Shown piece by piece: positions 21,339 through 55,599 of a stretch of 64,000 nucleotides of DNA. Under the pieces are notes generated by a model. That model searched no databases, was not told where the DNA came from, and saw only the letters and a list, made by a program, of their open reading frames with translations. How positions within the stretch are numbered: the first letter of the stretch is position 1; each line of letters opens with the position of its first letter. The DNA comes from Sulfuriferula sp. AH1 (lineage in GTDB: Bacteria; Pseudomonadota; Gammaproteobacteria; Burkholderiales; Sulfuriferulaceae). The translations under genes were made by a program, and so were the position numbers. The stretch lies in assembly GCF_002162035.1 (NCBI RefSeq), contig NZ_CP021138.1, forward strand, positions 434,001 through 498,000, in the 5' to 3' direction.

Positions 21339-22621
21339 ATGACCAAAAACCAAATGTTGTTTGAGCGGGCGCTGCGCCATATTCCTGGCGGCGTCAATTC
21401 GCCGGTGCGGGCATTTCGTGCCGTGGGCGGAACTCCCTGTTTCTTCGAGCGCGCCAAGGGTGCCCGGGTCTGGGATGCGGACGGACGCGAGTTTATCGAC
21501 TATGTGGGCTCCTGGGGCCGATGATAGTCGGACATAGTCATCCGGACGTGTTGCAGGCGGTTTGTGATGCTGCGGCCAATGGGTTGAGTTTCGGTGCGCC
21601 TACTGCACGCGAAGTCGAAATGGCCGATTTGCTCACCGAGCTGATTCCAAGTATGGATATGGTGCGGCTGACCAGTTCCGGTACCGAGGCGACCATGAGC
21701 GCGATACGGCTGGCACGAGGTTATACCGGACGTTCCAAGATCATCAAATTTGAAGGTTGTTATCACGGGCATAGCGATTCGCTGCTGGTGAAGGCCGGGT
21801 CAGGCGCTTTGACCTTCGGGCAGCCCAGTTCTGCCGGCGTGCCGCCGGAGCTGGCAGCGTATACGATCGTGCTGGAATACAATGCGCCGCAACCGCTGGT
21901 GGATACATTTGCGCAATGGGGCGATCAGATAGCCGCGGTTATTGTAGAACCTGTGGTCGGCAACATGAATCTGATTGCGCCGCGTACCGAATTTCTGCAA
22001 ACCATGCGCGAGGTATGTACCCGGTATGGTGCCGTACTGATTTTTGACGAGGTAATGACGGGATTCCGTGTTGCGTTGGGCGGGGCGCAGGCTTTGTATG
22101 AGATCACACCGGACATTTCGACCTTCGGCAAGGTGATCGGCGGCGGCATGCCGGTGGGTGCATTTGGCGGGCGTCGCGATATCATGGAGCAGCTTGCGCC
22201 ATTGGGACCGGTTTATCAGGCGGGTACGTTGTCAGGTAATCCGGTAGCGGTTGCTGCCGGTCTGGCGACCTTGAAATTGATACAGGTGCCAGGTTTCCAT
22301 CAGCGCCTGGATGACACTGCCCGGCAGCTGACCGAAGGATTGGTGGCGATGGCTGGAAAACACGGTATAAGCTTCTCCGCGCAGCATGTCGGCGGTATGT
22401 TCGGTTTGTATTTCCGTGCACAGGTGCCGCAGACTTATGATGAAGTCACGGAATGTGACAAAGAGGCGTTCAATCGTTTCTTCCATGCGATGCTGGATGA
22501 GGGGATTTATTTCGCGCCATCGGCATTCGAGGCCGGATTCGTATCTGCTGCGCACGGGACGACGGAAATAGAGGCGACGCTGGCAGCCGCAGATCGCGTG
22601 TTTGTAAAAATGGCTGCTTGA
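21339..22621 (+). pseudogene. hemL: glutamate-1-semialdehyde 2,1-aminomutase HemL, frameshifted
   Basis: PLP enzyme that converts glutamate-1-semialdehyde to 5-aminolevulinate, the haem precursor in the C5 pathway. The sequence reads as two frames. 21339-21524 gives the N-terminal 61 residues ([20 protein letters not shown] ... VGSWGR, then TGA), and 21521-22621 gives the remaining 366 residues from [10 protein letters not shown]. Family members read VGSWGP-MIVGH without a break, so one C is missing at about 21516-21520 (GGGGCC where GGGGCCC is expected). Everything else is intact, including the PLP lysine region [18 protein letters not shown]. Because hemL should be essential here, a consensus error is likely; a true split gene coupled through the ATGA overlap is the alternative. 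Confidence 0.88.
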
Positions 22622-50395: not shown

Positions 50396-50477
50396 TTCGT
50401 CACCGAAGCGCAGGAATACTTCCGACTGCAGACGGAAATTATATAAATAATAATCAAGGAATTTGGAGCGCTACAAA

Positions 50478-52397
50478 ATGGACAGCAGGCTCGATCAGGG
50501 AATAGCGCAGTACCAGCGCCAGCGTGGCGAGATTCTGGCAACTCTGGAATCTTACCGCGCGTGGCTGGAGCGTTATACCGACGTCGAGTCCGGGCAGAGT
50601 CTGCGCCTGTATGATCTGGCCGAAAGCCTTAAGCGCGATAAATTATTGCTGGCTTTCGTGGCTGAATTTTCGCGCGGCAAATCCGAGCTGATTAATGCCT
50701 TGTTCTTTGCCGATCTGAAACAGCGCTTGCTGCCGTCCGATGTCGGCCGTACCACCATGTGTCCGACCGAATTGTTCTACGACGCCGATAGCGAACCTTA
50801 CCTGCGCCTGCTGCCGATAGAAACGCGGCTGCGTGATGATTCGATTTCACGCCTGAAGCGTTTGTCCATCGAGTGGAGCAGTATTCGCCTGGATCCCGCC
50901 GATCCTCAGCAAATGAGCGCAGCCTTGCGTTCACTGGCTGATGTGAAAAGAGTCGCTGTTGCCGAGGCTCAGGCAATGGGGCTGTGCGATGCCGGCGATA
51001 TCGTCAAATCCCACGATGGCATGGTTGAAATCCCGGTCTGGCGTTATGCGATGATTAATTTCCCTCATCCGTTGCTGAAAAGCGGTCTGGCGATACTGGA
51101 TACGCCGGGTTTGAATGCGCTCGGTTCCGAACCGGAATTAACCCTGAATACGATCCCTAACGCGCACGGCGTATTGTTTTTGCTGGCGACAGACACCGGC
51201 GTGACGCGTTCCGATCTGGAGATATGGGAAAACAGTGTGCGCCATCATGCCAACCATCACGTGGCGATTCTGAACAAGGTCGATATGTTATGGGATGAGC
51301 TCAAATCCGAGGCGGAAATCGAGCAGAGCATACATAAACAGAAGCAGCACACGGCGCAGCAATTGCAGTTGGCGGAAGATCAGGTTTTGGCCTTGTCTGC
51401 GCAAAAGGCGTTGCTGGGGAAAATCCGCGGCGATCAGGCCCTGATCCAGCGTTCCGGCATCGGCGCGCTGGAAAGCCTGCTGGCGGACAAGATCATTCCC
51501 GACCGTCAGGTGATACTCTACAAGTCGGTATGCAACGAAGTGCAAACGATGGCTGGCGCGTCCCGCCAGAGCGTGAACATGCAGCTCGAAGGCGTGCGCC
51601 AGGATCTGGAACAGCTCAGCGCATTCTCGGGCAAGAATTGCGAAATCGTGACTAATTTGCGCGACAAGCTGATCAAGGAAAAGTCGGCATACGATGCCAC
51701 TACCATGAATTTCAAAATAACCCGCACGCTGATACAGGAACAAGGCCGTTTGCTGCTGGATGCGCTGGCTGAGGAAGTGCTGGATGAAATGCTGGTTGCC
51801 GGACGTGCCCGTCTGGAGGATTGCTGGACGACTCCCGGACTGGTGCAGGGAATGAATGATTTGTTTGCACAAATCATTCAGCGTTTCCATGAAGTCGAAG
51901 ACCGGGCAACCAGAATCGTGGAACTGCTTGACGCCGCTTATCTGCGTTTTCACCAGGAACATGGTTTCCCGCTGTTGAGCCCGCCACAATTGACGATGGA
52001 TAATTGCCGGCAAAAACTCGCCGTACTCATGTTGCAGGTGGATCAGTTCGGGCATGATCCGGTCAATCTGATCATGGAAAAACGTTTCATGGTCAAAAAG
52101 TTCTACCTGAGTCTGGTGGCAGAGGCGCGCGGCATGTTCATGCTCGCCAAAACCGAGGCCGATAGCTGGTTGCGGCGCAGCCTTGACCCTGTGGTCATGC
52201 GTATTCGCGATCATAAAAAACAGCTGGAAATCCGTATCGAGAATATCAAGCAAGTGCATGACAATCTGGATAACCTGCAAGCCAGAACGCTTGCATTGAA
52301 AAGCCAGCAAGCCACGCTGGAGCAGCAGCAGGCTGAAATTGGCGTGATCCTGCAAGGGTCGGCCTGTCTGTCGGCAACTGTGGCAAGCCAGATTTGA
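50478..52397 (+). CDS. dynamin-like GTPase
   Basis: A 639-residue protein of the bacterial dynamin family. GTPase motifs: G1 FSRGKSELINAL near residues 57-68, with Arg where Gly is common; G2 Thr candidate in GRTTMCPTELF; G3 ILDTPGLNALG; G4 ILNKVDMLWDEL. Long helices follow (NMQLEGVRQDLEQLSAF, residue 350 onward), with a coiled coil at the end (KQLEIRIENIKQVHDNLDNL). No membrane segment. The ATG at 50478 has a GGAG at 9 bases. Bacterial dynamins remodel or protect membranes. A FimV-like gene lies 14 bases downstream, so the two are probably co-expressed. I know of no described role for this pairing. Confidence 0.82.
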   Translation: MDSRLDQGIAQYQRQRGEILATLESYRAWLERYTDVESGQSLRLYDLAESLKRDKLLLAFVAEFSRGKSELINALFFADLKQRLLPSDVGRTTMCPTELFYDADSEPYLRLLPIETRLRDDSISRLKRLSIEWSSIRLDPADPQQMSAALRSLADVKRVAVAEAQAMGLCDAGDIVKSHDGMVEIPVWRYAMINFPHPLLKSGLAILDTPGLNALGSEPELTLNTIPNAHGVLFLLATDTGVTRSDLEIWENSVRHHANHHVAILNKVDMLWDELKSEAEIEQSIHKQKQHTAQQLQLAEDQVLALSAQKALLGKIRGDQALIQRSGIGALESLLADKIIPDRQVILYKSVCNEVQTMAGASRQSVNMQLEGVRQDLEQLSAFSGKNCEIVTNLRDKLIKEKSAYDATTMNFKITRTLIQEQGRLLLDALAEEVLDEMLVAGRARLEDCWTTPGLVQGMNDLFAQIIQRFHEVEDRATRIVELLDAAYLRFHQEHGFPLLSPPQLTMDNCRQKLAVLMLQVDQFGHDPVNLIMEKRFMVKKFYLSLVAEARGMFMLAKTEADSWLRRSLDPVVMRIRDHKKQLEIRIENIKQVHDNLDNLQARTLALKSQQATLEQQQAEIGVILQGSACLSATVASQI

Positions 52398-52411: not shown

Positions 52412-54103
52412 ATGCATCAGCGCATATCCCGAACCATCCTGCTGGTTGCAGCCATGACTGCAACCGGCGTTACTGCGGCCATGGGGTTCGGAGCGGCTCG
52501 GGTCAGATCCGGCTAGGGGCAGCCGCTCGATGTGATGATCCCTGTGTTAAGCGACGATGCAGGTGAGTTGGCCGATAATTGTTTTGTGCTGACACAGCCT
52601 GGCCAGGCTGATGACAGTTTGCCTTCGTTAAAGAAAGCCAGGCTGACAGTGAAAAATATGGCGGGCATCCCTTATCTGGCATTGACGACCCAATACGCGG
52701 TCAATGACCCTGTGCTCGTATTCGCGATAGAAACACGCTGTTCAGGCCTGGTGCGACGCGAATATACCTTGTTGCTGGATGTGGCAAGCAATGCAAGTAA
52801 TGCCGCTGTTGTTGTCAGCCCAGTAATCGTCCCGCCAGTGGTAGCCAGACCGCGAGTGGCACAACCTGCTCCCAAAACCGACGCTGAACTGTTCAGCAGC
52901 AAGCAGGGCCTTGTGGCCAAGCGCAAACTTCCGGCCTCTGACAGGCATCCTGCGGCTGTGGCGAGACCGGCTGTGATTCAGCCCGCTTTCGCTGTGAACC
53001 TGCATCTGAGTACATCTCTGTCCAGTTTGCCCGGGCAGTACCCGTTATCGGCGGAGCAGTTGATTGCGTTGAAGCGCATGCGCGGCATGCTGTCGATAGA
53101 CGCAGGCAGACCCGCATCGGAAATCGACCGGCTGCGCGATGATCTCGTCGCCAGTCAGCAGCAACTGGCTCAGGCAAAACACGCTTTGGTGCTGTTAAGA
53201 GCGCAGACGGTCAAGCCAGCTCAGCCTCAGCCGGCACTCCAGCCGACAGCTGCCAGAAATGCAGCCGCAAGCTGGCGGCGGTCTGGTTGGCTGTGGATCG
53301 GTCTGGCATTGCTGGTATTGGTTGCGGGTTATGTGCTGGATCGCCGCCGGAAATTGTCGAATCTGATGTTTACCGTACCATCGCCCGACGATCAGGCCGA
53401 CAAAGGCCAAATTAAATTGGGTGCCATTGCGCAGGTAGATTCGGCGACGAATGACTTGTGGGCGCATGTGGATGATGTTGCTGCGCCGTCTTCGCAACAG
53501 CATCCGGATATCGAGTTCGCGGTAGATAAATTGCCGGGGCATGATCTGCTTGCCCGGCCCGCGGAACGACATAATACGGTGCAGTCAGAGGCGCTGTCGG
53601 TCTCCAGTTTGATGCGCGTAACCGAAGAAGCCGAGGTGTTTCTGGGGCTGGGCTATAAGGACAGGGCGATTGCCGTGTTGTCGGAAGATATTGCCGGGCA
53701 TCCGCGTAATCATCCGGCGGTGTGGTTCATGCTGTTAGGCATCTATCGTGAACTGGGTGACCATGAATCGTTCGATCGGACGGTAGCCGGATTCAAACAG
53801 CGCTTTAACCTGATTGTGCCGACCTGGAATTTGATTATGCCGGCAGAGCAAAAGGGGGAGGGTGTGCTGGCAATGACGCACATCATGACCAGAATCATAT
53901 CCTTGTGGCCTGACCATGAATGCTACGATTATCTGAGCGAGCTGCTCTACGACGACAGGCAGGGGAGCCGCCAGGGATTCAGTCTGGACGTCTATCGCGA
54001 TATTATCTGGTTGAAGGAAGTTCTGGATATTCTGAGCAAACCGGAAACAAAGATCGCCGAAGAAGTGGCGGCTGAAGATAATCTGGATTGGGATTTTCAA
54101 TAA
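52412..54103 (+). pseudogene. FimV-like pilus/polar hub protein interrupted by an in-frame amber codon
   Basis: A single frame from ATG 52412 to TAA 54101-54103, broken only by TAG at 52514-52516. Before it lies a signal peptide (MHQRISRTILLVAAMTATG) and GFGAARVRSG; after it GQPLDVMIPVLSDDAGE, the usual FimV N-terminal S-x-L-G-Q-P-L pattern, with TAG where Leu is expected. The FimV-type REYTLLLD sequence, a coiled coil, a membrane segment (SGWLWIGLALLVLVAGYVL, about 250 residues after 52532) and a C-terminal TPR-like EVFLGLGYKDRAIAVLSEDI follow. No LysM is obvious. A downstream start at GTG 52529 or ATG 52532, with AGGGG ahead, would make a protein without signal peptide. Confidence 0.72.
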
Positions 54104-54144: not shown

Positions 54145-55599
54145 CTAGATTAGAATAATATCGTACTGCTCCTGGGTATAAAAAGTCTCGACCTGCAAGG
54201 ACACGGGCTTGGCGATAAAGTCGCCCAATTGCGCCAGACTCTGCGATTCCTCCTCCAGAAACAAGTCGATTACCAGTTGCGATGCCAGAATGCGGTATTC
54301 CTTGGCATTGAACTGACGGGCTTCGCGCACGATTTCCCGCAATATTTCGTAGCATACGGTCTTCGCGGTTTTTACCTGGCCGCGTCCCTGACAGGTAGGG
54401 CACGGCTCGCACAGGATATGCGCCAGGCTTTCTCGGGTGCGTTTGCGCGTCATTTCCACCAGGCCTAGCGGAGAGAAGTCGTGTACCGACATGCGGGTAT
54501 TGTCGCGCGACAGCGCTTTTTTGAATTCCAGAAACACTTCCTGCTGGTGGTCGCGGTTATCCATGTCGATGAAATCGACGATGATCATGCCGCCCAGATT
54601 GCGTAACCGCAATTGCCGTGCGATGGCTTGTGCCGCCTCCAGATTGGTTTTGAAAATGGTGTCGTCAAAATTGCGGACACCGACAAAGCCGCCGGTGTTG
54701 ACGTCAACCGTGGTCAGGGCTTCGGTCTGGTCGATGATCAGATAGCCGCCGGATTTGAGATCGACACGGCGCGCGAGCGCTTTTTCGATTTCCGCTTCGA
54801 CGGCGTACAGGTCGAACAAGGGGCGTTCCGCAGCGTAATGCTGTAATTTTTCGATTACTCCTTGCGTGTAATTCTGGGCGAACTCAAACATCTTTTGATA
54901 GGTTTCGCGCGAATCCACCAGTATCCGGCTGGTTTCATCGTTGGCAAAGTCGCGCAGTACCCGTAATGCCAGATTCAGATCCTGATAGAGCAGGGTTTTC
55001 ACTGCTGCGACCTTGGCGCGGCTCTGGATGTCTGCCCACAACCGGCGCAGGTAATCCACATCGGCCTGCAGTTCGGCGGTTTGCGCCTGTTCGGCCATGG
55101 TGCGGATAATAAAGCCGCCAGGTTCGCCTTCGGGAATGATGAGCTGAAGTTTTTGGCGTAACTGTTCGCGTTCGGCCTCATCCTCGATCTTTTGGGAAAT
55201 GCCGATGTGCGAGTCTTGCGGCAAATACACCAGGAAGCGGCCCGCAAAGCTGATCTGGGTAGAAAGGCGGGCGCCTTTGGTGCCGATAGGGTCCTTGATG
55301 ACCTGCACCATGATGCTCTGGCCTTCGAACAGGATGCGTTCGATCGGACGTTCTTCGCCGATGTGCTGGCGTTCTTCCCAGATATCGGCGACATGCAGAA
55401 AAGCGGCACGTTCCAGGCCGATATCGATGAACGCGGATTGCATGCCCGGCAATACGCGACACACCTTGCCGAAATAAATATTGCCTACCAGGCCGCGCTG
55501 ACTGCTGCGTTCTATATGCAGCTCTTGCACTACGCCCAGATGCATGACAGCTACACGGGTTTCCTGCGGAGTGACGTTGATCAGTATTTCTTCGCTCAT
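54145..55599 (-). CDS. rng: ribonuclease G
   Basis: Endoribonuclease of the RNase E/G family that matures the 5' end of 16S rRNA and degrades some mRNAs. N-terminal S1-like domain around LVGNIYFGKVCRVLPGMQSAF, then the catalytic DNase I-like domain with GGMIIVDFIDMDNRDHQQEV (metal-binding Asp) and the zinc-link cysteines CEPCPTCQG. Length 484 is RNase G size, without the long RNase E degradosome tail. It overlaps maf by 4 bases and ends the proA-nadD-rsfS-rlmH-maf-rng operon. Confidence 0.94.
   Translation of the reverse strand: MSEEILINVTPQETRVAVMHLGVVQELHIERSSQRGLVGNIYFGKVCRVLPGMQSAFIDIGLERAAFLHVADIWEERQHIGEERPIERILFEGQSIMVQVIKDPIGTKGARLSTQISFAGRFLVYLPQDSHIGISQKIEDEAEREQLRQKLQLIIPEGEPGGFIIRTMAEQAQTAELQADVDYLRRLWADIQSRAKVAAVKTLLYQDLNLALRVLRDFANDETSRILVDSRETYQKMFEFAQNYTQGVIEKLQHYAAERPLFDLYAVEAEIEKALARRVDLKSGGYLIIDQTEALTTVDVNTGGFVGVRNFDDTIFKTNLEAAQAIARQLRLRNLGGMIIVDFIDMDNRDHQQEVFLEFKKALSRDNTRMSVHDFSPLGLVEMTRKRTRESLAHILCEPCPTCQGRGQVKTAKTVCYEILREIVREARQFNAKEYRILASQLVIDLFLEEESQSLAQLGDFIAKPVSLQVETFYTQEQYDIILI

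Follow-up and report, generated by a model that had tools for sequence, protein, structure and literature searches.

A probable recent, strain-specific nonsense mutation in a second FimV-like gene of Sulfuriferula sp. AH1

In Sulfuriferula sp. AH1 an in-frame amber codon stands behind the signal peptide of a FimV-like gene. We consider this TAG, with a probability of about 0.78, to be a genuine and recent nonsense mutation that is specific to the strain, and the gene to be a second FimV-like copy that the strain can dispense with. This verdict is based on seven syntenic, stop-free orthologues, all with Leu or Ile at the codon; on four genomes that have no such gene at the locus, together with an intact 918-aa FimV in AH1 and no polar cost of the stop; on a tRNA set without a CUA anticodon and a normal use of TAG as terminator; and on the isolation of the lesion, the lone clear internal nonsense codon in our survey, and a substitution, in an assembly with 303x coverage and a reported QV > 50 (PMC5552976). 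The published genome has 2,877,007 and 39,138 bp (CP021138/CP021139; PMC5552976), in agreement with the 2,916,145 bases in two contigs analysed here, the larger of 2,877,007. The window, i.e. the whole stretch of 64,000 nucleotides that was analysed, is AH1 chromosome 434001-498000, and the TAG lies at 486514-486516 in chromosome numbering. The features of the locus, in window positions, are the following.

50463-52397, + strand: dynamin-like gene (Pfam Dynamin_N, synteny), with a 14-base gap to the FimV-like gene 3' of it
52412-52513, + strand: signal peptide and first FimV_N residues, 34 codons (translation, homologous N-termini in relatives)
52514-52516, + strand: in-frame amber TAG (Leu or Ile in seven genus orthologues)
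52515-52519, + strand: AGGGG, Shine-Dalgarno-like by chance, 12 bases to GTG 52532 and 15 to ATG 52535
52517-54103, + strand: FimV-like body, 528 codons plus TAA (FimV_N Ig-like domain, linker, hydrophobic segment, C-terminal conserved region)
52532-52537, + strand: putative restart codons GTG and ATG, without conservation in relatives
about 53280-53345, + strand: single hydrophobic segment of the FimV-like body, followed by RRRK
54145-55599, - strand: RNase G gene, rng (NCBIfam ribonuclease G, synteny), convergent, downstream boundary of the locus

The frame 52412-54103 translates as MHQRISRTILLVAAMTATGVTAAMGFGAARVRSG, followed by the stop and then by GQPLDVMIPV, and the TAG is the sole internal stop before the terminal TAA. 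A profile of the genus orthologues aligned to AH1 from 52415 to 54100 in one frame, across the TAG, with 833 bits. The Ig-like domain FimV_N (PF25800) was found after the signal peptide above its cut-off, with 29.6 bits for the body and 44.9 bits when the part before the stop was included. The one-frame alignment and this gain of 15 bits indicate that the codons upstream of the stop are part of the gene and that the frame is not due to chance. Translation, profile and FimV_N together confirm the first-pass annotation, which had described a FimV-like gene with a signal peptide, one amber codon and no other lesion.

An orthologue between the dynamin-like gene and the RNase G gene is present in eight of the 18 genus genomes, AH1 included, and AH1 alone has an internal stop (0/7 in the others). 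At the amber site six of the other seven have Leu and one has Ile: the codon is TTG in G014/MAG_CA113 and G013, TTA in G012 and G017, CTG in G003 and ATT (Ile) in G008, and the residue in G016 is Leu. The Leu codon that had been proposed as the ancestor is supported by these residues. The orthologue comparison recommended by the same annotation also found that the relatives do have a signal peptide at that position, and none was found without it. On the evidence of the genomes compared, the FimV-like gene is variable in the genus, since dynamin adjoins rng with the gene missing between them in G001, G002, G007 and G011, and different genes follow dynamin in G006 and G015; for G004, G005, G009 and G010 the dynamin match examined was only a more distant one. 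Considering the four genomes without the gene at the locus and the intact canonical FimV (918 aa) encoded elsewhere in AH1, the copy at this locus looks dispensable.

Regarding its family, the protein shares with the polar landmark proteins FimV/HubP/TspA (such as Pseudomonas FimV) a signal peptide, a FimV_N Ig-like domain, one hydrophobic segment and a C-terminal region, as well as a position near type IV pilus genes. It differs from them in having no Pfam LysM match at E 0.001 (a divergent copy is possible) and no FimV_Cterm motif (TIGR03504), which is present in the 918-aa FimV at 582936-583067; in its length of about 560 against about 910 codons; and, in AH1, in the stop behind the signal peptide. 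By the absence of the FimV_Cterm motif, the locus protein is best classed as a FimV_N protein and not as canonical FimV. By description it may be likened to Rsp0189 of Ralstonia solanacearum, also a shorter second paralogue alongside a full-length FimV-type protein, although Rsp0189 is intact, megaplasmid-borne and outside a dynamin-rng locus. Twitching is unchanged when Rsp0189 is deleted (PMC7214476), a precedent that agrees with a second FimV-type copy being dispensable.

The gene order is yggS-proC-yggT-dynamin-fimV-like, the last gene being the end of the run and convergent with rng. No operon gene lies between it and this convergent neighbour, so the stop carries no cost through polarity. 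Two T2SSE-family ATPases, probably PilT and PilU by their position, lie upstream of the FimV-like gene on the opposite strand, and the same window also holds pilMNOPQ and a Pil-Chp-type chemosensory cluster. AH1 has two dynamin-like genes (window 50463-52397 and chromosome 2735355-2737217) that are 39% identical, a pair found also in several members of the genus and perhaps of interest as bacterial dynamins. A 558-codon open frame at window 59049-60725 matches no Pfam family at E 0.001.

The simplest path to the present sequence would be a single T-to-A change, turning a TTG Leu codon into TAG. Translation from 52412 would then give only a 34-residue signal-peptide fragment, and the exported, membrane-anchored protein would not be made, or would be made in traces. 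The gene would be a young pseudogene with a body yet undecayed, and of the options named in the first-pass annotation recent decay is the best account. A single stop, an intact body, intact orthologues and an intact paralogue in the genome are all shared with young bacterial pseudogenes of one nonsense codon, from which the AH1 copy has no notable difference.

The FimV-like body shows purifying selection. In a codon model (five taxa, 445 codons), omega was 0.146 for the AH1 branch and 0.107 for the rest of the tree, a difference that is not significant (2 delta lnL 1.2); by the likelihood profile, omega for AH1 stays under about 0.27, and a value of 1 over the whole branch is rejected. Relative-rate tests leaned towards a faster AH1, not significantly, and the neighbouring genes have no consistent acceleration in AH1. 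As the AH1 body has no significant relaxation, its decay is deduced from the stop alone, and the constraint along the branch agrees with a lesion that arose late in its course. Saturation of synonymous sites precludes a date for the lesion.

Against a recent mutation stand the apparent errors of the AH1 assembly, though these are of another kind. The strain was sequenced with PacBio RSII, and Quiver was the sole polishing (PMC5552976); according to PMC8812927, the errors that most often remain in assemblies from long reads alone are those of homopolymer length. In the AH1 assembly the following five genes are each frameshifted, with a net one-base deficit beside or within a G run, and three of them we take to be truB, nuoI and sbcB by our own reading of the sequences.

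window 21339-22621: hemL, G-run frameshift relative to G014 and G012, lesion at about 21506-21518
chromosome 503776-504680: truB-like gene, net one-base deficit relative to G014, placed less exactly where the alignment around it is poorer
chromosome 563707-564194: nuoI-like gene, net one-base deficit relative to G014
chromosome 624210-625636: sbcB-like gene, net one-base deficit relative to G014
chromosome about 2087410 (region 2086600-2089000): prfA (RF1), split into two frames near codon 303, one base fewer than G014, beside a G run

The frameshift in hemL was probably introduced by the assembly, as a homopolymer error of the long reads. The prfA frameshift is most likely an artefact of the same kind, since so many truly broken core genes would be improbable in a living autotroph and homopolymer errors are the commonest. 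Counts of G/C runs in AH1 and its relatives revealed no clear shortage in AH1, so the reading of these lesions as undercalls rests on the genes themselves and not on genome-wide statistics.

The TAG could itself be a consensus error of this PacBio-only assembly, by a substitution or by two compensating indels, the strain having a sense codon; we regard this as unlikely. The apparent residual errors in the five genes and the constraint still seen in the body are consistent with it, and a route through indels can be drawn, as G012 and G017 have TTA followed by GGG or GGT, and the loss of one T and the gain of one G would give TAGGGG. However, two adjacent compensating errors are unlikely, and all the other lesions are net one-base deficits that break the frame. 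In our survey, 424 kb of AH1, taken in stretches, was compared with G014 over its syntenic contig. The 166 conserved genes gave 54,676 aligned codons, and among these no overcall and no second internal nonsense substitution was seen. No clear in-frame nonsense codon other than the FimV-like amber lies inside any of the 166 genes; the other stops that were flagged sit before plausible start codons, close to a C-terminus, or in frames that are themselves doubtful. PacBio substitution errors are rare at 303x coverage. A lone internal nonsense codon that is a substitution, unlike the observed error pattern of the assembly, is probably real.

By itself the amber codon is of little importance, as it would mark the early stage of a pseudogene for an additional FimV-type protein, and some members of the genus lack this gene at the locus. 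A more useful by-product is the finding that the AH1 reference genome has apparent homopolymer deficits in the core genes hemL, prfA, nuoI, truB and sbcB. Taken at face value, these would make the strain unable to produce heme by the usual route, or leave it without RF1. Physiological claims for AH1 that are based on the broken genes call for caution and a check of the reads.

A real stop could still be followed by reinitiation at GTG 52532 or ATG 52535, giving a protein without signal peptide, with a changed location and perhaps function; we consider this improbable. The AGGGG has an anti-Shine-Dalgarno duplex energy of -5.6 kcal/mol, which makes it nearly as strong as the native start (-6.1), and the GTG and ATG follow the stop by 16-19 bases. 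The spacing of the AGGGG had been given as 9 bases to the GTG and 12 to the ATG, a miscount by three; the real values of 12 and 15 are long and poor. The AGGGG simply arises where the TAG meets a Gly codon, GGG, which relatives have as well, and the pair of start codons is not common to them (DVM in AH1, SVV in G012, NLI in G014), so the earlier suggestion of reinitiation from this site is weak. The product would also miss the start of the Ig-like domain, which Pseudomonas putida FimV requires for its placement and for swimming, although an atypical FimV homologue of Acinetobacter baumannii is functional without a periplasmic domain (PMC12918733). In addition, the RRRK after the hydrophobic segment would imply an N-out topology, in which about 290 residues would have to be moved across the membrane.

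Decoding of the amber as sense, through weak RF1 termination or a suppressor, is very improbable, in spite of a conserved body and of a prfA that is frameshifted in the assembly while whole in 16 of the 17 genus relatives (the exception, G003, is an incomplete, fragmented genome). The loss of RF1 looked real at first and was set aside, because hemL, nuoI, truB and sbcB, four conserved genes, are broken by a one-base deficit of the same type, which points to assembly error. Depletion of TAG as a terminator was likewise rejected: it ends 25 of 162 AH1 genes against 22 of 162 orthologues in G014, and is thus a normal terminator. The proposed search for an amber suppressor tRNA was run and came back empty, with no CUA anticodon among the 47 tRNA matches of AH1, all read with ARAGORN. 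Nor is there any conservation of the stop in the other seven orthologues of the genus, as a site decoded as sense might have. That the prfA frameshift is real, with RF1 absent or impaired in AH1 and ribosomes reading through the FimV-like amber as sense, is likewise very improbable, although if true it would show a wild bacterium at an early stage of freeing its UAG codon. As a separate observation on the tRNAs, the chromosome has a tRNA-Sec gene with anticodon TCA at 1398360-1398450, and AH1 may therefore make selenoproteins.
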